From: Agmasoma carcini (nom. nud.)
Taxonomy: Eukaryota; Microsporidia; Thelohaniidae
Assembly (NCBI GenBank): GCA_029232285.1
Contig: JAOXFI010000008.1
Span: 62,001 to 126,000 of the forward strand
Length of the DNA: 64,000 nt
Direction of reading: 5' to 3'
Made by a program: the position numbers and the translations under genes. The notes beneath the pieces are model-generated. The model was not told the origin of the DNA and searched no databases. It worked only from the letters and a program-made list of their open reading frames with translations. Each line of letters starts with the position of its first letter. Positions within the stretch are counted from its first letter, which is position 1. Below are positions 20,676 through 62,222 of this stretch, piece after piece.

Positions 20676-23462
20676 TTAGCTTTTAATGTTGTTGTTTTTA
20701 TTGGAACATTTACAGTCATTTCCACTGCATATGCAGTCTTCTTCGTTTTTTCTTTCACATTTAAAATTATTATTTGTATTTCTCAAATATGGTTTTTTAT
20801 TGCAATTTTGATCATTTTTACAGACTCTTTGACAATTTCCATTACAATTGTTATATCTACGAAACTGTGGTTTTGTGGTTGTGCCTTTTTCTTCATTATT
20901 TGAATGTGTTTGACTCTTGTGAAATTTCTTGTAGAAGTTTGTGGCAAGACCACATGAGTAATCTTTGATACCATTGAGAAAATTATTGAATCTAACTTTA
21001 ATCCCGCTATCTTTCTTTTCTTTATCATTATTTTCAAGATAATTAAAACAATAATTATAGTTACTATCACCATCATCACCAAAATATATATCTTCATCAA
21101 AAGATTCTTCAAAATCAGCATTACCATCATTAAAAGAACGAGGATCAATATCATCATTTCCATAATTATAATGATTTGAATGGTTTGGATATCCTTCATT
21201 AGGGCATCCACAAAATTGACCAACTCCGGTTTGATTACAACTAGAGAATTGACCTCCAACTTGACCACCTCCGGTTTGATTACAGCCAGAGAATTGACCT
21301 CCTATTTGACCACCACCTGAAATACCACCTCCAATATTAGCGTTACCAGGTAAACCACCTCCAAATTGAGCATTGCCTGATAAACCACCTCCTAATTGAG
21401 CATTGCCTGATAAACCACCTCCTAACTTGGCGTCACCAGATAGATCACCTCCTAGATTAGCGTTACCAGATAAACCACCTCCTAACTTGGCGTCACCAGA
21501 TAATTTGCCTCCTAAATTGGCGTCACCTGAAAGACCACCTCCTAGTTTAGCATCACCAGACAAACCACCCCCAAGTTGGGCATTGCCTGATAATCCACCT
21601 CCTAACTTAGCGTCACCTGAAAGACCACCTCCTAGTTTAGCGTTGCCTAACAAACCTCCACCGAGTTTAGCATCACCAGTTAATCCTCCACCAAGTTGTG
21701 CATCACCAGATAATCCTCCACCGAGTTGTGCATCACCAGATAATCCTCCACCGAGTTGTGCATTACCTGATAATCCTCCACCGAGTTGTGCATTACCTGA
21801 TAATCCTCCACCAAGTTGTGCATCACCAGATAATCCTCCACCGAGTTTAGCATCACCAGTTAATCCTCCACCGAGTTGTGCATCACCAGATAATCCTCCT
21901 TCAATTTCACCACCTCCAGAAAGTCCTCCTTCAACTTTACCACCTCCAGAAACTCCTCCTTCAATTTCACCACCTCCAGAAAGTCCTCCTTCAATTTCAC
22001 CACCTCCAGAAAGTCCTCCTTCAATTTCACCACCTCCACTAATCTGACCACTACCAGAAGCTTCTCCACTAGCATGACCACCTCCACTAATCTGGCCATT
22101 ACCAGAAGCTCCTCCACCAGCATGACCACCACCAGAAACTCCTCCACTAGCTTGACCTCCTGCAGAAGCTCCTCCACTACCAGAAATACTAGCTTTAAAA
22201 TATGAACCATGAATAGAATTAACTTCTTCACCATCATCCTCTGTGGTTTTTGAATTCTCACCTATCGGTAATTGAGATAAAATATCAATAGTGGTTTTGT
22301 GAGGAATTTTTGAATTCTTAAACTTTAATTCCTCTTTTACAACTACTTTCTTTTTAATTTCTGTGCTTATGGCTAGCTTCAATGGGTTAAATGCCTTTTC
22401 TATTAAGGTTATCATCTTATCAATATTATCTTTCTCCGAATCTTCACACGCGCTACAAACCTTGGTAATAAGATCAGAATTTGATGCATACATGTTTATA
22501 AATTTGACAAAATTCTTGAATAGAACGTATTCCTCATTATAAAATCCTATCTTCTTTGCCTCACCTCCATAAACTATCCTAACATACTTTCTTTTTGAAT
22601 TTTTCAATACTTCAATAAAAATCGCATCCCCATATGATGGAAACCTACTTATTGGTACATTAAGACCATTCAAAACCCGTGTTATGGTTATATCATCAAC
22701 TGATAATAATACCATTTCTTGATTATTATATAGTTTTTCTTTAATAAGTGAAGCTAGTTTTGCAAAAGAAAATCCATTTAAGCTAATATTCTCTCTTTCT
22801 TTTGCCATTGAATCCTGTAATTTCTGTTGTTCAACATCTAAAAATTCTTTGATCTTACTTGAATCACACTCAATCTCATCACAGTCCAATGGAACATCAG
22901 AACACAGACTTTTAAGATACGTGTCTCTGTCTTGTGACCCTTTATCACTTGATTCAAATGATGTCATCATGTATTTATATTTATTTTGAAGACCTTTTTC
23001 TAAGTTATTACAGTTCTTGTCAAATGTTAACCTACTATCTGCAACATTGGTTTTTCTGTAATTCTCAAAATTATTTAGCAGGCCCATCAGTGCTGGTAAT
23101 GATGTGTTATTATCGATATATGAACCATCTATCTTAACACTTTCCAACTTTGGTACATAATAATTTTTTAAAAACCTTCCCAAATCTTCACTCTGTTCAT
23201 ACCCTCTGATGGTTAGGCTACCTGCCTTACATTTTGAAATAAAACAATCATTTTCATTACATTTGATGCAATTTTTCTTCATTTGTGAATCATCATTATT
23301 ATTTGTGTTCTCACCATGCCTAAAGAATACAATCACCTTCTCAAGATCCATATTCGTATCGGTATATTTGTAGTTTGGACTGCAATATGAGCCAAACTCA
23401 ATCAAATTCTCATCTCTGTATATGATCTTTGTATCTGCGAGTATTTTTATATAGAACAGCAT
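20676..23462 (-). CDS. Histidine-phosphatase-like protein with Gly-rich repeat domain (copy 1)
   Basis: A 928-residue protein. Residues 40-300 resemble branch-2 histidine acid phosphatases: EKVIVFFRHGEN (41-52), SLTIRGYEQSEDLGRFLKNY (82-101), LLSVDDITITRVLNGL (252-267) and RFPSYGDAIFIEVL (273-286). The family's RHGxRxP is reduced to RHGENT and HD to DD, so activity is doubtful. Residues about 425-755 are Gly-rich ten-residue repeats (GGGLSGDAQL, GGGEIEGGLS). The C-terminus (about 804-928) has FLNGIKDYSCGLATNFYKK and a Cys-rich end (CICSGNDCKCS). Residues 1-371 are identical to copy 2 at 28891-31041. A weak hydrophobic start (MLFYIKILA) is the only candidate targeting signal. Upstream lacks the common A/T plus CC start motif. 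A surface or secreted role is inferred, not shown. Confidence 0.82.
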   Translation of the reverse strand: MLFYIKILADTKIIYRDENLIEFGSYCSPNYKYTDTNMDLEKVIVFFRHGENTNNNDDSQMKKNCIKCNENDCFISKCKAGSLTIRGYEQSEDLGRFLKNYYVPKLESVKIDGSYIDNNTSLPALMGLLNNFENYRKTNVADSRLTFDKNCNNLEKGLQNKYKYMMTSFESSDKGSQDRDTYLKSLCSDVPLDCDEIECDSSKIKEFLDVEQQKLQDSMAKERENISLNGFSFAKLASLIKEKLYNNQEMVLLSVDDITITRVLNGLNVPISRFPSYGDAIFIEVLKNSKRKYVRIVYGGEAKKIGFYNEEYVLFKNFVKFINMYASNSDLITKVCSACEDSEKDNIDKMITLIEKAFNPLKLAISTEIKKKVVVKEELKFKNSKIPHKTTIDILSQLPIGENSKTTEDDGEEVNSIHGSYFKASISGSGGASAGGQASGGVSGGGHAGGGASGNGQISGGGHASGEASGSGQISGGGEIEGGLSGGGEIEGGLSGGGEIEGGVSGGGKVEGGLSGGGEIEGGLSGDAQLGGGLTGDAKLGGGLSGDAQLGGGLSGNAQLGGGLSGNAQLGGGLSGDAQLGGGLSGDAQLGGGLTGDAKLGGGLLGNAKLGGGLSGDAKLGGGLSGNAQLGGGLSGDAKLGGGLSGDANLGGKLSGDAKLGGGLSGNANLGGDLSGDAKLGGGLSGNAQLGGGLSGNAQFGGGLPGNANIGGGISGGGQIGGQFSGCNQTGGGQVGGQFSSCNQTGVGQFCGCPNEGYPNHSNHYNYGNDDIDPRSFNDGNADFEESFDEDIYFGDDGDSNYNYCFNYLENNDKEKKDSGIKVRFNNFLNGIKDYSCGLATNFYKKFHKSQTHSNNEEKGTTTKPQFRRYNNCNGNCQRVCKNDQNCNKKPYLRNTNNNFKCERKNEEDCICSGNDCKCSNKNNNIKS
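21300..22190 (-). repeat. 30-bp coding repeats for ten-residue Gly-rich units
   Basis: Inside copy 1, roughly 21360-21900 holds tandem 30-base units encoding GGGLSGDAQL/GGGLSGNAKL, and 21890-22035 units encoding GGGEIEGGLS, flanked by longer GGGHASG/SGSGQIS-type units. The antisense strand therefore shows a Pro-rich open frame, which is a shadow. Confidence 0.9.
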
Positions 23463-23850
23463 GAAGTATATGTTATTCCTTGTTTTATAAAACTAGTGAA
23501 GGATATGTTAGATCTGTTATCTGTTTCAAAATTGACTTCAATAACGATGGTATAGAATTTAAAGCATATGAAATTTGGACAGCTATGAATTTTTATATGA
23601 ATTATATTCATTACTGAGATTTACTTATAGATAGGATGAATTTAAACCCAGAATTCATTTATAATTTTTTCGTATAATTATAAGTCATTATGGGCTTATT
23701 GCTTGTATTTTTATATAGAACAAGACAAAACGTCATTATTATATAATCTTTGCACCTACACTGTCTGCCAAAAAACAGTATTCAACGTTCAAATTTTCCC
23801 AAAAAATATAATTTTCATTTTTACATGATTAGTTCTTACCATAAAATTAA

Positions 23851-24704
23851 TACAGTACTCTAAAAAACCGGAAATCCCACAAATTTTGTTTATAGATTGG
23901 AAAATATTAAATAAAAAACAATTTTAGTTAATCGTATGATTATTTCAGTAATATTTTCAATTTATTAATTAAAAATTGATGAACCTGGCTATATTATGGC
24001 ATTTAAATGATATATAACAGGTAAGAAGATTTAAGAGAGCAATAAAGCTGGTTACAACTATATGGAGATACAAGAAGGTTATTATTACCGTATACATTTG
24101 TATCGGAAAAAGAGTGTAATGATGCTAATGTTTTCTTAAAGGACTTTGTGGTGTATGCAGGGTCAATTAGATATAGCTAGAATGAAAATAAATTTCATTT
24201 AAGCTAGCACTGAAGAGTGAGTCGAAAGTTTTGTATGAGGCAATGAAGCAAAAACAAAAAAAATGCTATTTTTTTGAAAATAGACTTATTTATAATATTT
24301 TTATGTTAGCAGATAAATTTTTAAAAACAATAAGAAGAATGAGTGATTAAGAACTTTTAAGTTCTCCGATGATTCATGGATATGTGATTAGAAGAAGAAG
24401 CTGTAAAAATTTATAACATTATAGAAATATAATCAAAATGTTTAGATTTTTTTCACGATTGTGTCATAATACTAACCGTCAATATTGTTTTAAATATTTT
24501 TCTTTAAGAGCTGGCGTTTTTAAACCTTTTAATTGTGATATTCACCTTGTTTGACAATATCAAAACATTTTTTGTTGAAACTTAATAATTAACAATTCTA
24601 ATTTTAATACAATAGCAATCATAAAAAAATAGATAGTTTTATTGACAAAATTCAAGAGACTGATTTTTCAACCAGTAAATTGGGTGTGTCCGGTATTAGA
24701 GTCC
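23851..24704. mobile_element. Possible decayed Tc1-like element
   Basis: TACAGTACTCTAAAAAACCG at 23851 matches the outer terminal repeat of the Tc1-like elements at 32432 and 61263. GGTGTGTCCGGTATTAGAGT at 24683-24702 could be its right end. No transposase could be read between them. The left end is convincing; the right end is tentative. The rest of 23463-23850 has no gene. Confidence 0.35.
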
Positions 24705-24962
24705 AAATGATAAACCATACTATACTTTAAAATTAAAAGTCATGTGAGAATAAAACAGGCGCTATTATATTTTTGAGTATAATATTAGATTACATTTATT
24801 TTTACAGAGTCTTTCTTGATAAGAAAGCTTCAACATTCATTCCTATATTTTGTAGTCAACTATCCCCAAGAAGTATAATTTGGAATGATGAACATTAAAA
24901 GTATAACAATCAAATCGTGTGATTATGAGGCAATTAATTATTTTTTCAATAAAAACATAATA

Positions 24963-26331
24963 TATGCAGTTTTACAACCGATTTTAAATCGTTTCTAAAA
25001 AAAACAGTTAATCAAAAAAATCAAAATTGAGCTTCTCTTATTTATATTAAAATTAAAAACACATCGTTTTTACTTTTTTTTAATATTAATAAAATTTTTG
25101 AACCCACAAAGTGAAAAAAAACAATTTTTGTAAAATTTATGAATATATTTAAAATTAAAAAAAATACCTAATGACGCAGAAATTCGTTCATAGATTATTT
25201 AATCATACGAGAATTGTGGAGATTTTAAGTGTTGGAAAGACAACATAAAGTTCTCTTATTAACCGTTTATAACCGGGTTACTCTTGGAAATAAACCTGAT
25301 ATGCGAGGTAGATTTAAGAAGAGAAAGGTTGCAGAAGAAAATGTTTATAAAATGATCAGAAAAATTTGTTTCCTCAAACATAACACTTAAAGAGTTAAGT
25401 TTTAGTCTTCAATCAAGGTTCCCTGGTCTATCCATAAGCAAAACAAAAATTGCGAAATATCTCGATATGTTTCTATACACGTTGATAAAGGTAACATAAA
25501 GAGTCTGAGAGAGCAAAAAGCGAAGTGAATAAAAAAGCGAGATGTACTTGTCTTGGAATGATTGGAATATTGTTCCGAGCAATGGCAAATCTTATTTATT
25601 GATGAAATTCATTTTAACTTATATATTAGTAGGTCATTTGTTATATCATCAAAAAATTCAAGGGCTATTGTAGTATTGACTGCTTCAAACGGTTTTAATG
25701 TACATATTATAGGCGCAATAAGTAACCTGAGTTTGGTATTAAAGGAATTAAAAAAAAGGTGCTTTAAAAAAGGTAAATGTATATGATTATATTCAAAAGT
25801 ACTTAAAAGAATGCATGTAAGTATACAAAAGGTTAGTTGTCTTAGTTATTAATAATGCGCCTGTTCATTTGTTATGAATGATGTTTTGTGCGAAACAGAA
25901 TTTTCCGAAAATGAAATTCTAGGGTTGGGCTGTATAGTTCAATGCTCAACCCCATTGAAAATATTAAGAGCACTCTTAAAGCTTAGGTTAAAAGGCAGAT
26001 GGCTTTAAGAATAAGTGAAATGATTGTGACAGAAACTGGTATTTAATCGGGAAATGGGTATGGAACACGAACTCTAGAATGTAAAATAAGATTATCTCTT
26101 AACAACGTGGTGCCCATTGAATGGTCTAATTTGATCGCCGCACTACAAGGAAGAATATCAGCAGTTTTAAATAAAGAAGACATGATATGGTAATAAAATA
26201 TAATTTTTCATGAATTGTTTTATTACTTTCAAGGATCAAAACTTTTATAAATATCAGAAAATGCTAAAGCAATAAAGTTAAAATTTTCCAATATCAATGA
26301 AAAGATTTTAAATCGATTGTAAAACCGCATA
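24963..26331 (+). pseudogene. IS630/Tc1-type (DDE_3) transposon with broken transposase
   Basis: Terminal inverted repeats of about 35-40 bases bound the element: left 24953-24995 with TATGCAGTTTTACAACCGAT, right 26303-26345 whose reverse complement has TATGCGGTTTTACAATCGAT. TA lies at both outer edges. The plus strand encodes a broken transposase: an N-terminal helix-turn-helix-like part near 25170-25500, then LFIDEIHFNLYISRSFVISS and VHIIGAISN at 25580-25740 (first catalytic Asp), and a late ML-NPIENI-like block near 25935-25970 (Pro-x-x-Asn-Pro-Ile-Glu motif). Stops and frame changes throughout show that it is inactive. A 74-codon frame at 25562-25786 is part of it, not a gene. Confidence 0.65.
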
Positions 26332-26409
26332 TATTGTATTTTTTATTTAAATTTTTTTACTATTAATTTTGTTTTTGAATTATGTTTATATATATATAAA
26401 TTCAAAATT

Positions 26410-26480
26410 TTTACATTTTCTCATTTAAAAGTTTACTATTCTTATTTTTAAGTTATATATTTTCATTTTAAACGGATAAT
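26410..26480. repeat. Terminal repeat related to the 8196-8740 element
   Basis: TTTACATTTTCTCATTTAAA followed by AGTTTACTATTCTTATTTTT and CATTTTAAACGG parallels the right terminus at 8660-8738. The matching left end was not located. Confidence 0.5.
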
Positions 26481-27462
26481 TTTATAGAATGAGCCTTTTT
26501 ATTGAACAACATATAAAACTATTAATATAAATAAAGATTTATAAAACAGGAAAGCATGTTGATTTAAATAATTAATCAAAAATACCTTTTGTAATTTTGT
26601 GTTTCACATCTACTCTATTAAATATGATTTTAACAACCCAGTATAAGAGTCTATCACATTTTAATTTTTAATCCAGTTTATTCTATAAAGACACAATGTT
26701 TTGAATATAAACATCATCAATTAGATCACCAAAATTAAAAAATGATTAACTGTTGAATAAGAAAAGTTTTAATTGTTATATTTATATAATTACAATATTA
26801 ACCACTTTTAAATAATCCGCTCTCTGCACATATTATGTAAAATAGGTAATAGAGTTGCTGCAATTCTATCCTAAGGCAGTTTAACAACATACTTTGAATT
26901 AGAAATAGACATATTCGCAATACTAAACATCCCCTGTTCTTTATCACTAATTCTTAACTAGTGGTATTTTTGCTTACAATTAAACATAAATTCATTGATT
27001 TAAACAATTCACACCCAAACCACCTGGCACCATTGAAATTTTTTTTTAAATTCTTTCCCATATTTTTTGTTACGCTTATTTGCTAATTTTTTAAACAAAC
27101 TAAGCTCACGAGATGTGGCAGATTATGTCAAATTCTCTAACTACCTAAACATAATATATTTTTCTTAAGGGTATCTTAATTTCACCAAGATCCTTTTGTT
27201 CGTATGCTTATTCTTTTTTTAAAAATTGGTACAACAACTTTTATAACAAATAAATGCTATATTATCAATTGAACTCATATACTTTACTTCTCTAATAGGA
27301 GTGTTACAACCACATCAATAAACGATAGAATGAAGAACCTTCTTTCTTTTTAGCGCTTTATAACATCTGTATTATCATTTTTAGTTATTATGAACTGTTT
27401 TTCAAAATTAAACATGATAAATTTTTGTAACTATATAGAATAAGGGTTATTTCTTTATATTA

Positions 27463-27640
27463 AAACCATAACTATAAAAGAGAAAATTTTCACAACCCTA
27501 ATGGTAGAAATGATTACAACCACAGAGCAGCCAGAACAAAAAGAGGCATCATAGTAGATTAATAAATCTTTTGAGATCAAGTATATATACGCAAGACTCT
27601 TATTGATATTTGATACACCATTCAGCTTCGGTAATATTAT
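27463..27640. repeat. Dispersed repeat shared with 5736-5900
   Basis: GAGATCAAGTATATATACGC followed by AAGACTCTTATTGATATTTG and ATACACCAT parallels GAAATCAAGTTATTGTATCT, AAGATGCTTATTAAGACTTG and ATACACCAT at 5838-5885. Both copies probably derive from one transposon. The 63-codon minus frame at 27455-27646 is not convincing as a gene. Confidence 0.45.
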
Positions 27641-28890
27641 ATTCAAATATGAAAATTTACGACAGATTTATTTCTTACATTATATTTTTTCAGTCCTAAT
27701 GTTTAAATGGCATTGGTGTGCTCATACGCTTATTCATAAACCCATTATTTTGATCGATAATAGAGGTCTATAATTAGATTACAAAAACAATAAATTGATA
27801 AGAATAATAGCCACATGTATTTATCAAAGTTCTTCAATAATTTTATATTTTTAAAGTGCTATACACTTTTATCAGAAAAGTATGGCTATTCTTATTTTTA
27901 ATCTACTCAAATATTGATACCATCATATATTTTATAGTACATATTTTAGTTTCAAAAGTGGTTAGATTGTATGTGGCTTTATCTACAACAACAAATTATT
28001 TCATGATTTGTAATGAGTGCAGCTTTCACTAATTTTTATTTTTTTCTCAGTAATTCCCTAATTGTATTCATAAAATATTATAGCTAAATATAGCCCCTTT
28101 TTATTATTTTTAAAATGACAGACCAAATGGTAGTTTTGCCGGTATGAAAATTATAGAAATATTTTATCAAATTTACATTTGTTTTATAAGTATGAGAACA
28201 TCTCAATTACTTTAAGATTATTGGTTTTGATGTTTTTTCACAATTGCCAGAACCAGCATTTTCTTTGGTAAAAAGCAATTTTATAGTAATATTCGCAATA
28301 AAAAGACTTTCCTATAGCCCATTTCTAGTATTTTATGCTCTTATGTTTAAAACAGTTTTTAAAAGATTTATATAGTAGATTCAAGTGTATTATTTAAGGT
28401 AATAATAAAAATTTTTAGTCTGCATTTTCTTATTTTTTATTTTCAATTTCGCTGTAACTATAAAAAGCCATCAAATTTTATTCGATGAGTTTTAGAAAAA
28501 ACATAAAGGTAAACCTTTGGGTGATTATGTAGACTTCCAAGACAATAAAACAACTTTTACCGTTTTATAGGATTATTACGCCAGGATTCTTCAATATAAT
28601 CACTTTTATAGTTTTTGTAGCAATTTTGTTCTATTACCTTACTGTGTGGATAATAATATTTCTAAATTTAAAATATAATAATTTTTTTATAAGTAATATT
28701 TTGATTTCAAAAAATTGATTATTATTTGTAATATGTTGAAAGATTGTTTATTATCGATAAATTTTACTTCCAAAAATCGGATGATTTAATATGCACCTAT
28801 TAAATAATTAATAATCAAATAGTCCTTTTCTTTTTAAAATCAGAATCAGTGTTTTAAAATATATTTCTTATTAGGAAAAAAAACATTTTA
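27641..28890. other. AT-rich region without a recognisable gene
   Basis: No open frame of useful length, and nothing could be assigned between the dispersed repeat and the 3' end of phosphatase copy 2. The segment 26480-27460 is likewise anonymous AT-rich sequence. Confidence 0.5.
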
Positions 28891-31041
28891 TTAATTTTTC
28901 ACGTTTGAACACCCACAGCCTAGTCCTGAACATTTACATCCTTCATCCTTCGATTTTTCGTTTAAGCTATCATCATTATCCTTTTCTGTTAATTGATTGT
29001 TCATTTCATTATCATTCATCTTTTCTTTTAAGCACCCACAACCGCTCAGATTTTCTGCATCAGATTTAATACCACATTCTTTACATCTTGAATTGTCTTT
29101 ATCATTCAAGTTTGATATTTCGGATTTATTCCCTTCATCGAATATATTAGCATTGCTGGTTTCCTTTGCCTTATTATCATGTAATTTGTTGTAAAAGAAA
29201 GTGGCCAATCCATTTGAATATTCTTTAACTCCATTAAGTAAATTATAAACCTTGCTTGTAATTCCTGTTTCTTTTTTATTTTTCTCATTCTTATCAAGAA
29301 AGCTAAAATGCATTCCACGCATCCCATCATTTGAGTGACTATCATCATGGTGACCTCCGTGATGCCCGTCATGATGGTCGCCATAATCCCCTCCACCCAT
29401 ATTGTGAGGATCAAAATGATCACTACTATTATGGTGATTATTATTATTATGATGACTACCATTGTTATAGTAATGCCCGTTATTTTGATAATTATTACCA
29501 CGACCAGAATACCGACCATTAGAATAGTTGTCATAAGGAGAACCATTACCTTCATACCCACTATCCGAATCATTTGAGTAATCTCTTCCCGAATAACCAC
29601 CATTTGAGTAACCACCATCAGAATTATCACTATCAGAATATTTATTGTTATTTGAATACTCGTTTTTATAATTGTTATGATTTGAACGGCCACCTCTAGA
29701 ACTCCAGTTATTATTTTCACCTCTATCACCATAATCTCTGCCGTCTTTAGAACAACGTTTGTTTCTATATCTATCATCACCATCACAATCATAATCTGAG
29801 CCATATGATCTATGATTCGATGAAAGTTGTGATATATTGTTGAATGATGGGATGAAAGAAGAAACAAAACTTGACTTCAATGAAGCCAGCAAGTTTTTAG
29901 AGCTAGTTTCTTCTTGTGGAGGAATCATCTTTTTAATTTCTGTGCTTATAGCTAGCTTCAATGGGTTAAATGCCTTTTCTATTAAGGTTATCATCTTATC
30001 AATATTATCTTTCTCCGAATCTTCACACGCGCTACAAACCTTGGTAATAAGATCAGAATTTGATGCATACATGTTTATAAATTTGACAAAATTCTTGAAT
30101 AGAACGTATTCCTCATTATAAAATCCTATCTTCTTTGCCTCACCTCCATAAACTATCCTAACATACTTTCTTTTTGAATTTTTCAATACTTCAATAAAAA
30201 TCGCATCCCCATATGATGGAAACCTACTTATTGGTACATTAAGACCATTCAAAACCCGTGTTATGGTTATATCATCAACTGATAATAATACCATTTCTTG
30301 ATTATTATATAGTTTTTCTTTAATAAGTGAAGCTAGTTTTGCAAAAGAAAATCCATTTAAGCTAATATTCTCTCTTTCTTTTGCCATTGAATCCTGTAAT
30401 TTCTGTTGTTCAACATCTAAAAATTCTTTGATCTTACTTGAATCACACTCAATCTCATCACAGTCCAATGGAACATCAGAACACAGACTTTTAAGATACG
30501 TGTCTCTGTCTTGTGACCCTTTATCACTTGATTCAAATGATGTCATCATGTATTTATATTTATTTTGAAGACCTTTTTCTAAGTTATTACAGTTCTTGTC
30601 AAATGTTAACCTACTATCTGCAACATTGGTTTTTCTGTAATTCTCAAAATTATTTAGCAGGCCCATCAGTGCTGGTAATGATGTGTTATTATCGATATAT
30701 GAACCATCTATCTTAACACTTTCCAACTTTGGTACATAATAATTTTTTAAAAACCTTCCCAAATCTTCACTCTGTTCATACCCTCTGATGGTTAGGCTAC
30801 CTGCCTTACATTTTGAAATAAAACAATCATTTTCATTACATTTGATGCAATTTTTCTTCATTTGTGAATCATCATTATTATTTGTGTTCTCACCATGCCT
30901 AAAGAATACAATCACCTTCTCAAGATCCATATTCGTATCGGTATATTTGTAGTTTGGACTGCAATATGAGCCAAACTCAATCAAATTCTCATCTCTGTAT
31001 ATGATCTTTGTATCTGCGAGTATCTTTATATAAAACAGCAT
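28891..31041 (-). CDS. Histidine-phosphatase-like protein with Asn/Gly/His-rich domain (copy 2)
   Basis: A 716-residue paralogue of the gene at 20676-23462, same strand, about 7.6 kb away. Residues 1-370 (RHGE at 48-51, SVDDIT at 254-259) are identical to copy 1, and the DNA of this part also reads identical over about 1.06 kb apart from substitutions at its two edges. After residue 371 it changes completely: about 372-577 is rich in Ser, Asn, Gly, Tyr, Asp and His (YSNGRYSGRGNNYQNNGHYY, HHDGHHGGHHDDSH) without tidy repeats. The tail is again related to copy 1: KVYNLLNGVKEYSNGLATFF and a Cys-rich end CKCSGLGCGCS. Catalytic Arg and His positions are lost as in copy 1. The likely role is extracellular or surface; the function is unknown. 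Confidence 0.82.
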   Translation of the reverse strand: MLFYIKILADTKIIYRDENLIEFGSYCSPNYKYTDTNMDLEKVIVFFRHGENTNNNDDSQMKKNCIKCNENDCFISKCKAGSLTIRGYEQSEDLGRFLKNYYVPKLESVKIDGSYIDNNTSLPALMGLLNNFENYRKTNVADSRLTFDKNCNNLEKGLQNKYKYMMTSFESSDKGSQDRDTYLKSLCSDVPLDCDEIECDSSKIKEFLDVEQQKLQDSMAKERENISLNGFSFAKLASLIKEKLYNNQEMVLLSVDDITITRVLNGLNVPISRFPSYGDAIFIEVLKNSKRKYVRIVYGGEAKKIGFYNEEYVLFKNFVKFINMYASNSDLITKVCSACEDSEKDNIDKMITLIEKAFNPLKLAISTEIKKMIPPQEETSSKNLLASLKSSFVSSFIPSFNNISQLSSNHRSYGSDYDCDGDDRYRNKRCSKDGRDYGDRGENNNWSSRGGRSNHNNYKNEYSNNNKYSDSDNSDGGYSNGGYSGRDYSNDSDSGYEGNGSPYDNYSNGRYSGRGNNYQNNGHYYNNGSHHNNNNHHNSSDHFDPHNMGGGDYGDHHDGHHGGHHDDSHSNDGMRGMHFSFLDKNEKNKKETGITSKVYNLLNGVKEYSNGLATFFYNKLHDNKAKETSNANIFDEGNKSEISNLNDKDNSRCKECGIKSDAENLSGCGCLKEKMNDNEMNNQLTEKDNDDSLNEKSKDEGCKCSGLGCGCSNVKN

Positions 31042-31067
31042 GGTTAATTTGCTATTTTTTATTTTAT

Positions 31068-31400
31068 ATGAATATTATAAGATTTGTCAGATCTGTTATA
31101 TGTTTCAAAATAAGTTACAAAATTAGTTTCAGAAATGAAAGTATGGATACAGAGACAAGGCGAAGTGAAACGAAGAAATCCTATAATATTGAAGAATCCA
31201 CATCAGAAACAACAAGTGAAGAATCACAAACGTTTAAATGTATACCTAAGGGTATTGTAGAGAATCTTATAAGAAGATTTGAAGAAATGAAGACAAATGA
31301 TGCTGCAGAAAATATTAAAAAGGTTAAAATTGACTATGTCATAGACATAAGCTTGAAAATTCAGTACTTTGAAGGACTCATAGCTACAAATAAATTTTGA
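31068..31400 (+). CDS. Small protein of unknown function
   Basis: An open frame of 110 codons starting divergently only 26 bases from phosphatase copy 2. A shorter form from the ATG at 31143 (85 residues, MDTETRRSETKK) is equally possible. The N-terminal part of the short form is Ser/Thr/Glu-rich. Residues from CIPKGIVENLIRRF to the end are predicted helical, with an ending VDIS-type amphipathic segment (IDYVIDISLKIQYFEGLIA). This could be a histone-fold-like or coiled partner protein, but nothing specific is recognised. A 25-base stretch near 31087-31112 resembles 23508-23533 upstream of phosphatase copy 1, a trace of shared ancestry of the two promoter regions. Confidence 0.5.
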   Translation: MNIIRFVRSVICFKISYKISFRNESMDTETRRSETKKSYNIEESTSETTSEESQTFKCIPKGIVENLIRRFEEMKTNDAAENIKKVKIDYVIDISLKIQYFEGLIATNKF

Positions 31401-32431: not shown

Positions 32432-33872
32432 TAGTACTCCAAGAAAAACCCGGACACCTCAAAAAATTTGTTTAAAAGGTGTGTATTTATAAATAAAGAG
32501 ATAATTGAGCATGGTTATATAAGTATATCTATAATGTTTTTTATTTTTTAAATCGCGCAATTTTATATAAACTCTTTTGACAATCTTGATAAATTTTTTA
32601 ACTAAAAACCAATAAAAAAACCGTACACCTTTATTTAATATGATGTATGACCACCTTTGCCACGATAATTTCTTTAATTCTGTCACTCATGGAATCTACT
32701 AGTATTCTACAGTATAATGTATCAATATCAGCCCATATTTTACTAATTTTTGATATCAAATGCGCCTCGTTTTCAAAAACAACATTTCTTAGTTTTTGCT
32801 TTAAATAAGTACATAGATGTTCTATTGGGTTTAGGTTTTGGCTTTGTGAAGGCCATTCTAACACCCCAATGTTCATATATTCAAAAAACTTTGATGCCAT
32901 CTTTTTTTAATGTCTTGGATCATTTTCTTGTTGAAATATATATTTTGAAAATTAGAATTTTCTTGCACTTTCATTTAAATTATTGTTTAATATTTAAGTA
33001 TAATATACTGCATTTAAGGTCATCCAAAAAACAACAAATTCTTAACACCATTTCTACTCATACAATCCCAAACAAATATTTCCTTCTTAAATAAATTTGA
33101 CAGTTTCATTTATAGGCGTTGATTTTCCTTCTTCAACCCACACCTTTTGTCTCTTAGAGTCATTATAAATGTTAAAAAAACTTTCAAATGAAAAATAACA
33201 TCGCTAAAGAAGTCTTTGCCTTTAAATAGCCACATTTCGCAATTCTAAATCTGTTAATGATTTGCACATTTGATAATTTTGGCTTAGATGAAGGATAAAC
33301 ACATCTAAAATAAATTTTCTTTAATAAAAGATGCAACTTTTATCACAGATACATATATTTGACTCATCTTTAATCATTTTTATAATATTGTGGCATGTAG
33401 CGTAAGGGTTTTTACTGATCATTTTTTGATTAATTTGATATTGCTGATATCAATTGATTCCTTCCTACCTATACCACCTTTTCTTTTACCCTTTTTTATC
33501 ATTCTTGTATTGTAGATCATTTTAAGTCGGTTTTTACACTGATTTCGCGTATTAAAAACCTCATAGAAAATAACTTAAAAATTCGACCTTTGTCGAATTC
33601 AGAAACATGTTTACCCATTAGGGTATTTGTTCTATATTTTTTATTTATAGTTATACAAAGAGGGAAAATTATAACGTATTTTTTTAGGTGACCGGTTTTT
33701 TATTGGTTTTTAATTAAAAAATTATCAAAAGAATATATATAAAATTCGCGATTTAAAAATAAAAAACATTATAGATATACCTATACAATTATGCTCAAAT
33801 CATTTTTTTATTTAAAAGTTTACACCTTTTAAACAATTTTTGGGGTGTCCGGTTTTTTTTTGGAGTACTGTA
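32432..33872 (-). mobile_element. Tc1-like DNA transposon with IR/DR-type long inverted repeats (copy 1)
   Basis: The ends read TAGTACTCCAAGAAAAACCC (left) and, reversed, TACAGTACTCCAAAAAAAAA (right), each followed by CCGGACACC. Inverted similarity extends about 200 bases inward. A second internal direct repeat sits at the inner edge (CCGTACACC at 32621-32629; GGTGACCGG at about 33688). Two short direct repeats inside each long inverted repeat is the IR/DR layout of elements such as Sleeping Beauty. TA dinucleotides flank the ends. Total length is about 1.44 kb, within the range for Tc1-like elements. Confidence 0.75.
32640..33640 (-). pseudogene. Broken Tc1-like transposase
   Basis: On the minus strand the start region gives MGKHVSEFDKGRIFKLF, a Tc1-like helix-turn-helix opening. 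The end gives VLEWPSQSQNLNPIEHLCTY and LKQKLRNV, the classic Trp-Pro-x-x-Ser-Pro-Asp-Leu-Asn-Pro-Ile-Glu catalytic block. Between them the frame is repeatedly broken. The C-terminal 89 codons (32631-32900) are still open. It is inactive in this copy. Confidence 0.72.
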
Positions 33873-60870: not shown

Positions 60871-60907
60871 ATTAAGGTTTTAATATATAAATAGGTATAC
60901 ATTTAAG

Positions 60908-61215
60908 GTTAGTATCTTTTAGGTTACTGTCTTTAAAGGTTATTACCTTTTAGGTTACTGTCTTTGAAGGTTATTACCTTTTAGGTTACTGTCTTTAATG
61001 TTGTTATTATCTTTAAGGTTACTGTCTTTAAAGGTTATTATCTTTAAGGTTACTGTCTTTAATGTTGTTATTATCTTTTAGGTTACTGTCTTTGAAGGTT
61101 ATTACCTTTTAGGTTACTGTCTTTAAAGGTTATTACCTTTTAGGTTACTGTCTTTAAAGGTTATTATCTTTAAGGTCACTGTCCTTAAGATCATTGTTAT
61201 CTTTAAGGTTTTTGC
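60908..61215. repeat. 31-bp minisatellite (GGTTACTGTCTTTAAAGGTT...)
   Basis: About ten units built from GGTTACTGTCTTTAAAGG and TTATTACCTTTTA, with shorter variants (ATGTTGTTATTATCTTTAA). It follows the second secreted-protein gene and ends near the Tc1 copy 2. Confidence 0.8.
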
Positions 61216-61262: not shown

Positions 61263-62222
61263 ACAGTACTCCAAAAAAGTTTATTTAAAAACTGTAAATT
61301 TTTGAATAAAAATAATTTAAGTTCAATAGTATAAATATACCTATAATATTTTTATGATAGCACATTTTATATAAACTCTTTTGATAATTCTTTAAATTAA
61401 AAATGATTAAAGATGAATCGATTGTGAGTATCTGTAAGAAAGTGTGAATCTTTTCCTAAAGAAAATTATCAAATAATTAACAGATAAAGAATTGCAAAAA
61501 CGTGGTTATTTAAAAGCAAAGACTATTTTGGTTATGTTATTATTCAAACATTTATAATGACTCTAAGAAGTAAAACCAACGCCTATAAATAAAACTGTAC
61601 ATTTGGTCAAAAGAAAACATTTGTTTGGGGTTATATGAGTGAAAATACTGTTCGAAATTTGGTGTTTTAATATGGAACCTTAAATACACTATGTTATATT
61701 TTAATATTAAGCAATAATGTAAATCAGAGTGCACGAAGTTTTTAATTTTCAACAAAACAATGATCGAAAGCATAAAAGTAAGATGGCATCAGAGTTTTTA
61801 AATATATGAACATTAAGGTGTTAGAAAAGTATTCATAGAGCTCATATCTTAACCCTGTAGAACATCTATTGGCTTATTTTAAGCTAAAACTAAGAAATGT
61901 TGTTTTTAAAATGAGGCGCAATTTAATTAAAATTTATTAAAATGTGGTCAGATATGGTACCTTATATTGTAAAACACTAGTAGATTTATAAGTAAAAAAT
62001 TAAAGAAGTTATTGTGACAAAAGGTGGTCATACATCATATTAAATAAAGGTGTCTGGTTTTTACAGGGTTTTAATTAAAATTTTATCTATAGAATTTATA
62101 TAAAATGCCCGATTATAAAAATGTTAAAGATATACTATTGAACTCAATTTTATTTTTTATTCAAAAATTTACACTTTTTAAATAATTTTTTAGTGTGTCC
62201 GGTTTTTTTGTTGAGTACTGTA
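61263..62222 (+). mobile_element. Tc1-like element copy 2, internally deleted
   Basis: The ends ACAGTACTCCAAAAAAGTTT and, reversed, ACAGTACTCAACAAAAAAAC with CCGGACAC match those of the element at 32432-33872, including the long inverted arms with the inner repeat (AAAGGTGTCTGG near 62047). The plus strand keeps a broken transposase: GIRVFKYMNIKVLE, then LNPVEHLLAYFKLKLRNVVF near 61850-61910. It is about 960 bases long against 1440, so roughly a third is deleted. Orientation is opposite to copy 1. Confidence 0.7.

Follow-up and report, generated by a model that had tools for sequence, protein, structure and literature searches.

Two neighbouring genes of the microsporidium Agmasoma carcini (nom. 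nud.) begin with the same coding sequence and continue with different ones. How did one part of these genes come to be identical, when the parts around it are unrelated or only distantly alike? The question was addressed in one stretch of DNA of 64,000 nt (here called the window), which is positions 62001-126000 of contig JAOXFI010000008.1 in an assembly of 4.26 Mb and 69 contigs. The window contained no N bases, and its GC content, measured in 2-kb steps, was 23-37%. Ribosomal protein uL2 of the assembly had its best match in chain 11he, which matched twice, followed by 6rm3, 6zu5, 7qep and 7qca, microsporidian ribosomes of V. necatrix, P. locustae, E. cuniculi and S. lophii, in keeping with a microsporidian source; the SSU rRNA family of microsporidia had no match among the 5 of 64 candidates that were scored. 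The two genes, A and B, have the same orientation and are separated by 5.4 kb:

20676..23462, minus strand: gene A, open reading frame of 928 aa, with a phosphatase-like head, a middle of Gly-rich decapeptide repeats and a diverged tail with a Cys-rich end
28891..31041, minus strand: gene B, open reading frame of 716 aa, with the same head as A, a low-complexity middle and a diverged tail with a Cys-rich end

Searches of the assembly found two copies of the head and, with the tails of A and B as queries, two copies of the tail; these copy counts are lower bounds. The middle of A matched itself alone in the assembly. The middle of B was covered by the search with full-length B.

The two loci were aligned base by base, which placed a run of 1,073 identical nucleotides amid diverged homologous sequence:

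22350..23462, minus strand: head of A, codons 1-371, same protein as in B (alignment)
29929..31041, minus strand: head of B, codons 1-371, same protein as in A (alignment)
22372..23444, minus strand: identical tract in A, 1,073 nt the same as in B (base-by-base alignment)
29951..31023, minus strand: identical tract in B, 1,073 nt the same as in A (base-by-base alignment)

The first-pass annotation had described about 370 initial codons with the same protein product, identical DNA at about 22375-23440 and 29955-31020, and substitutions clustered at the edges. The alignment agreed with each of these and gave the exact limits listed above. The first amino-acid difference was at codon 372; homology ended after codon 371, and the sequences were unrelated from there. 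Only three differences were present in codons 1-371, all synonymous: codon 3 (TTC/TTT, A versus B), codon 6 (AAA/AAG) and codon 364 (GCC/GCT). All three fell within the outer 41 of 1,114 nt, for which the random chance is 5e-5 (calculated post hoc). This suggested that they are, most simply, bases of the recipient that the tract did not reach, and not mutations of a later date. When the 59 differences were shuffled 20,000 times over the 1,308 homologous columns, no identical run was longer than 282, compared with the 1,073 observed.

The contrast with the tails was seen at synonymous sites. In the head 3 of 212 synonymous sites differed (pS 0.014), and in the tail 15.5 of 22.8 (pS 0.68; pN 0.24), counted over the 43 codons that aligned best without gaps. 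Had the head changed at the rate of the tail, about 144 synonymous differences would be expected in it; 3 were seen (Fisher p 9e-17, rounded counts). The tract itself had no difference over about 205 synonymous sites. This would place the event at less than 1% of the Jukes-Cantor distance of the tails, a bound good to an order of magnitude at most, because the tail estimate rests on those few codons and is near saturation. That selection at the nucleotide level has held both heads identical without any conversion is exceedingly improbable: nothing specific was found in its favour, and the absence of synonymous differences in the tract stands against a pS of 0.68 in the tails of the same genes. 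No second open reading frame of at least 150 aa overlapped either head.

Downstream of the heads, the following segments were distinguished:

21297..22038, minus strand: 30-bp tandem arrays in the middle of A, with decapeptides of the GGGLSGDAQL type (TRF)
29308..29928, minus strand: middle of B, low complexity, unrelated to the middle of A (TRF, BLASTP)
20679..21047, minus strand: tail of A, homologous to that of B, diverged (alignment)
28894..29307, minus strand: tail of B, homologous to that of A, diverged (alignment)

The middles had been called entirely different and the tails related but diverged, and both descriptions held. The middles showed no similarity to each other (BLASTP E 4.1), and the tails were identical in 45 of 139 columns (E 3e-14). 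Both middles had also been called repeat-rich. This was correct for A, with its 30-bp tandem array, but not for B, whose middle is of low complexity, rich in N, S, G, D, K, Y and H, and contained no tandem array at a TRF score threshold of 50. The repeat units of A gave a pooled pS of 0.57 and pN of 0.35 over 27 units in mixed registers, and we left these values uninterpreted because of the mixing. GC3 was 0.29 in the head, 0.14 in the rest of A and 0.25 in the rest of B; no donor was named from these figures. The 3' flanks of A and B aligned no better than shuffled sequences. Elsewhere in the window, tandem arrays were present at 60902-61210 (31-bp unit) and 303-566 (14-bp unit).

Upstream of the heads, the two genes were again alike over a short distance:

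23463..23532, minus strand: upstream block of A, with TATAAAA at -27 (23483-23489) (alignment with B)
31042..31111, minus strand: upstream block of B; TATAAAA is at 31062-31068 (-27), and the ATG is preceded by CC (alignment with A)

Next to the ATG, 50 of 65 aligned columns matched and the similarity was then lost, in keeping with the weak likeness of the 5' flanks reported before. The annotated starts of both genes look real, because both have TATAAAA at -27 and the ATG of B is directly preceded by CC, as in 9 of 21 ATG-initiated open reading frames (A is not among the nine). The 21 were taken from the 27 frames listed for the window, leaving out GTG and TTG starts and overlapping frames. 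An upstream exon, or a signal peptide hidden in one, was considered and thought unlikely in view of the TATAAAA at -27 in A and B and the CC before the ATG of B.

The promoter motif common to A and B, TTTTGAAACAKA, had three sites within the window. A longer form of the pattern was found in the assembly at A, at B and at one further site with three mismatches. Extension around the third TTTTGAAACAKA site gave 7 matches, versus 3.3 expected. A promoter-proximal block, TTTTGAAACAKATAACAGATCT, was conserved upstream of A (23510-23531) and B (31089-31110). Its first 12 bases also occurred at 1384-1395, which is 40-51 bp upstream of a hydrophobic-looking open reading frame at 613-1344. The 18-mer TGTTCTATATAAAAATAC, which covers codons 2-7 of A (23441-23458), had an exact second copy on the minus strand at 23705-23722, 264 bp further upstream. 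Three sites were present in the window when two mismatches at most were allowed (0.11 expected), two of them being the starts of A and B. A divergent open reading frame on the plus strand (31008-31400) has in-frame ATGs near 31068 and near 31143. Should the frame begin at the second of these, the promoter of B and the block shared with A would lie within a gap of about 100 bp.

The old flanking homology bears directly on how the heads became identical. If a gene without this head, or with a different one, had lately received a copy of it, as a fresh partial duplication or domain transplant, a tract of about one domain with a 3' edge adjoining unrelated sequence would be expected, and both were found. 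However, the two genes have old homology in their tails and in 65 bp upstream, where the TATA spacing is also the same. In addition, the synonymous edge differences lie inside the head and are most simply old, so that both genes probably already had it. We regard the transplant as very unlikely. The age and homology of the upstream block and the tail show that each gene was already complete in its layout when the event took place, which favours conversion over a fresh duplication or a transplant.

The other possibility that had to be weighed was an artefact of assembly or polishing, in which collapsing or gap-filling merged two near-identical heads into one consensus and the exact identity is false. 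Inserts of short-read libraries usually span less than about 1.1 kb, and a repeat of this length would exceed them. The protein searches also provided no independent copy of the sequence. On the other hand, the window is free of N, each copy is joined to different flanks in one contig of at least 126 kb, and the edge differences are still present. Divergence as high as in the tails would have kept the heads from being collapsed, and near-identity holds even if a few differences were erased. The exact identity of the tract may thus come partly from the assembly, and the near-identity would survive; as an explanation of the whole pattern, an artefact is improbable, about as much so as the transplant.

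We interpreted A and B as old full-length paralogues whose heads were very probably made identical in recent time by ectopic gene conversion. The first-pass annotation had proposed that the duplication is old and the conversion of the phosphatase domain recent, and the present measurements strongly support this: a tail pS of 0.68 as opposed to 0.014 in the head, diverged homologous sequence on both sides, and differences confined to the edges.

The gene conversion may be pictured as follows. The old pair share a promoter layout and a head, have tails that are related, and differ in their middles. One gene would have been repaired or recombined with the other as template, through ectopic homologous recombination that did not result in a crossover. 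The copied tract, which begins behind codon 6 and reaches codon 364 just short of the unrelated middles, would extend over nearly all of the homology that was left. Copying would have ended where the homology ended, and the bases of the recipient at the edges would have kept the old synonymous differences.

If the heads were as diverged as the tails, conversion between them would be inefficient. This hints that conversion recurs in the pair, and that earlier rounds may have kept the heads alike. Selection may also favour keeping both heads alike, which is possible and not required.

The repair may have been of the RAD51/DMC1 type. Two loci of the assembly scored over the cut-off for the Rad51 family. 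For one of these genes, all six matches at E 1e-110 were DMC1 structures; the second is presumably RAD51. A search for Ku in the assembly gave no match at E 1, with a model that matched B. subtilis alone among 14 controls, all prokaryote. Classical end joining is described as lost in microsporidia (PMC6635534). The two Rad51-family genes, the lack of a Ku match and this published loss together make homologous repair from a neighbouring gene plausible. Signals of segmental duplication and recombination have been described in microsporidian genomes (PMC12558613).

In its form, the pair resembles known cases of ectopic gene conversion and concerted evolution, with a sharply bounded identical tract inside older, diverged homology in neighbouring genes of the same orientation. 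No mechanistic difference from these was apparent; a feature of the A/B tract is that it covers nearly all of one domain. Rearrangement between microsporidian paralogues is likewise described for the subtelomeric families interAE, interB and interD of E. cuniculi (PMC4704409). By that account, those families lie at chromosome ends and have many recombination sites, whereas A and B are a single pair well inside a contig.

The DNA between A and B, and some of that beyond B, contained repeats:

23847..25783, strand not assigned: spacer of decayed repeats between A and B (assembly matches of 23463-25200)
25562..25783, plus strand: transposase fragment of the DDE_3 type in this spacer (16.4 bits for DDE_3, below the cut-off of 28.6)

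The segment 23463-25200 had 39 matches in the assembly including itself, the others being 66-88% identical, and the spacer appears from these to be old repeat debris. What looks like a dispersed repeat was present as an inverted pair at 32433-33133 and 61565-62219 (about 700 bp, 76.5% identity), and a fragment related to it lay at 33686-33869.

What protein part was converted? The head had been called a phosphatase. In Pfam, codons 1-370 alone matched His_Phos_2 with 24.1 bits, just over the cut-off of 23.6 (E 2.9e-5), through residues 41-105. Full-length A scored 20.6 bits, under the cut-off, and full-length B matched no Pfam family at E 0.1. Residues 1-150 matched the start of the His_Phos_2 profile (E 0.003), with a weaker, unrelated DUF beside it, and the second half of the head had no Pfam match at E 10.

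Comparison with PDB gave complementary results. At E 1, all four matches of the whole head were acid phosphatases. The first half gave no acid phosphatase and two unrelated weak matches. Residues 200-370 matched, at E 10, the C-terminal part of acid phosphatases in four of the five matches listed (E 0.012-0.18). NCBIfam gave nothing for the head, A or B. A single-sequence AlphaFold model of the head had a pLDDT of 36 and was unusable for fold comparison. A six-frame search of the assembly for His_Phos_2 at E 1 gave no match and missed A and B themselves, so other members may be present there.

The following positions of the active site were located:

23313..23321, minus strand: RHG motif of A, residues 48-50, followed by E51 and N52 where the family has x-R (placed by spacing)
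30892..30900, minus strand: RHG motif of B, residues 48-50 (translation of the open reading frame)
22692..22697, minus strand: D256-D257 of A, at the place of the catalytic HD (alignment)
30271..30276, minus strand: D256-D257 of B, at the place of the catalytic HD (alignment)

In EhHAPp49, an amoebic member of the family, the catalytic residues are given as Arg41, His42, Arg45, Arg152, His334 and Asp335 (PMC7926622). The RHG of A and B, with the nucleophile His, was kept as R48, H49 and G50 inside the profile match. The Arg expected two residues after it was replaced by N52, as placed by spacing. The HD of 7doq and 5cdh aligned with D256 and D257, that is, the His was replaced and the Asp kept. 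Thus R48, H49 and D257 were kept out of six catalytic residues, two were substituted and the sixth was not placed.

These matches make it likely that the head has the fold of a branch-2 histidine acid phosphatase. It is like members of that branch (5cdh, 7doq and 3it0) in its weak collinear matches at both ends of the domain and in keeping RHG and the Asp of HD. It differs from them in having Asn52 for the Arg of RHGxR, Asp256 for the His of HD and 11 cysteines, and in being fused to low-complexity middles behind a weakly hydrophobic N-terminus. Hence the earlier term is probably right for the fold but perhaps wrong for the activity. With two catalytic positions replaced, catalysis would be impaired or absent, and the head perhaps a pseudoenzyme. 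On balance, we lean towards a head that has lost or weakened its catalysis and would serve as a binding module on two different low-complexity linkers.

Relatives of the head were sought in 5.8 billion proteins. No match was obtained at E 1e-3 or E 10 (2,203 candidates each), a search that had no positive control and is weak evidence. Full-length limits at E 10 also gave none (3,808 candidates, with uncontrolled microsporidian coverage). A literature search on microsporidia and histidine acid phosphatase found nothing, and the sole match for microsporidia and histidine phosphatase was on wasp venom. Judged by title and the start of the abstract, none of the matches listed for microsporidia and acid phosphatase concerned such a gene.

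The first-pass annotation had also proposed that the conserved domain is carried on two repeat-rich presenters, in a layout suited to surface variation. The data did not support this. Two copies were found, neither protein had a transmembrane-like segment as judged by hydropathy alone (the highest 19-residue Kyte-Doolittle mean in either was 1.05), and it is the constant part that was homogenised. Antigenic variation by gene conversion involves many donors and the exchange of the variable part. In the A/B pair the identical tract is the conserved head, and the middles are unrelated. From the alignments, conversion appears to act on the conserved module and not to shuffle variable ones. No archive of variant donors was found in the assembly, which may be incomplete (two copies of head and tail, one of the middle of A). 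The VSG genes of trypanosomes are similar in that conversion takes place between paralogues of a parasite. They differ from A and B, for which two copies and no silent archive were found, the constant module was converted and a surface location is unsupported.

As a more speculative reading, which we consider doubtful, A and B could be a lineage-specific pair with an acid-phosphatase head that has been retired from catalysis. Recurrent conversion and selection would keep this head identical, and it would be expressed from one type of promoter on two different low-complexity stalks. If this were true, one binding head would be presented on two scaffolds, for example in the spore wall or polar tube. 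The head is phosphatase-like with an active site that is probably broken, marginal in Pfam and absent from NCBIfam. Recombination and the sexual cycle of microsporidia are under debate (PMC12558613, PMC3566094). Since the edges of the tract are sharp, other isolates would show the recurrence and direction of conversion directly. The case looks like an ordinary, recent and well-supported gene conversion on a little-known gene pair, and it would provide a clean example of conversion between protein-coding paralogues in a microsporidian.
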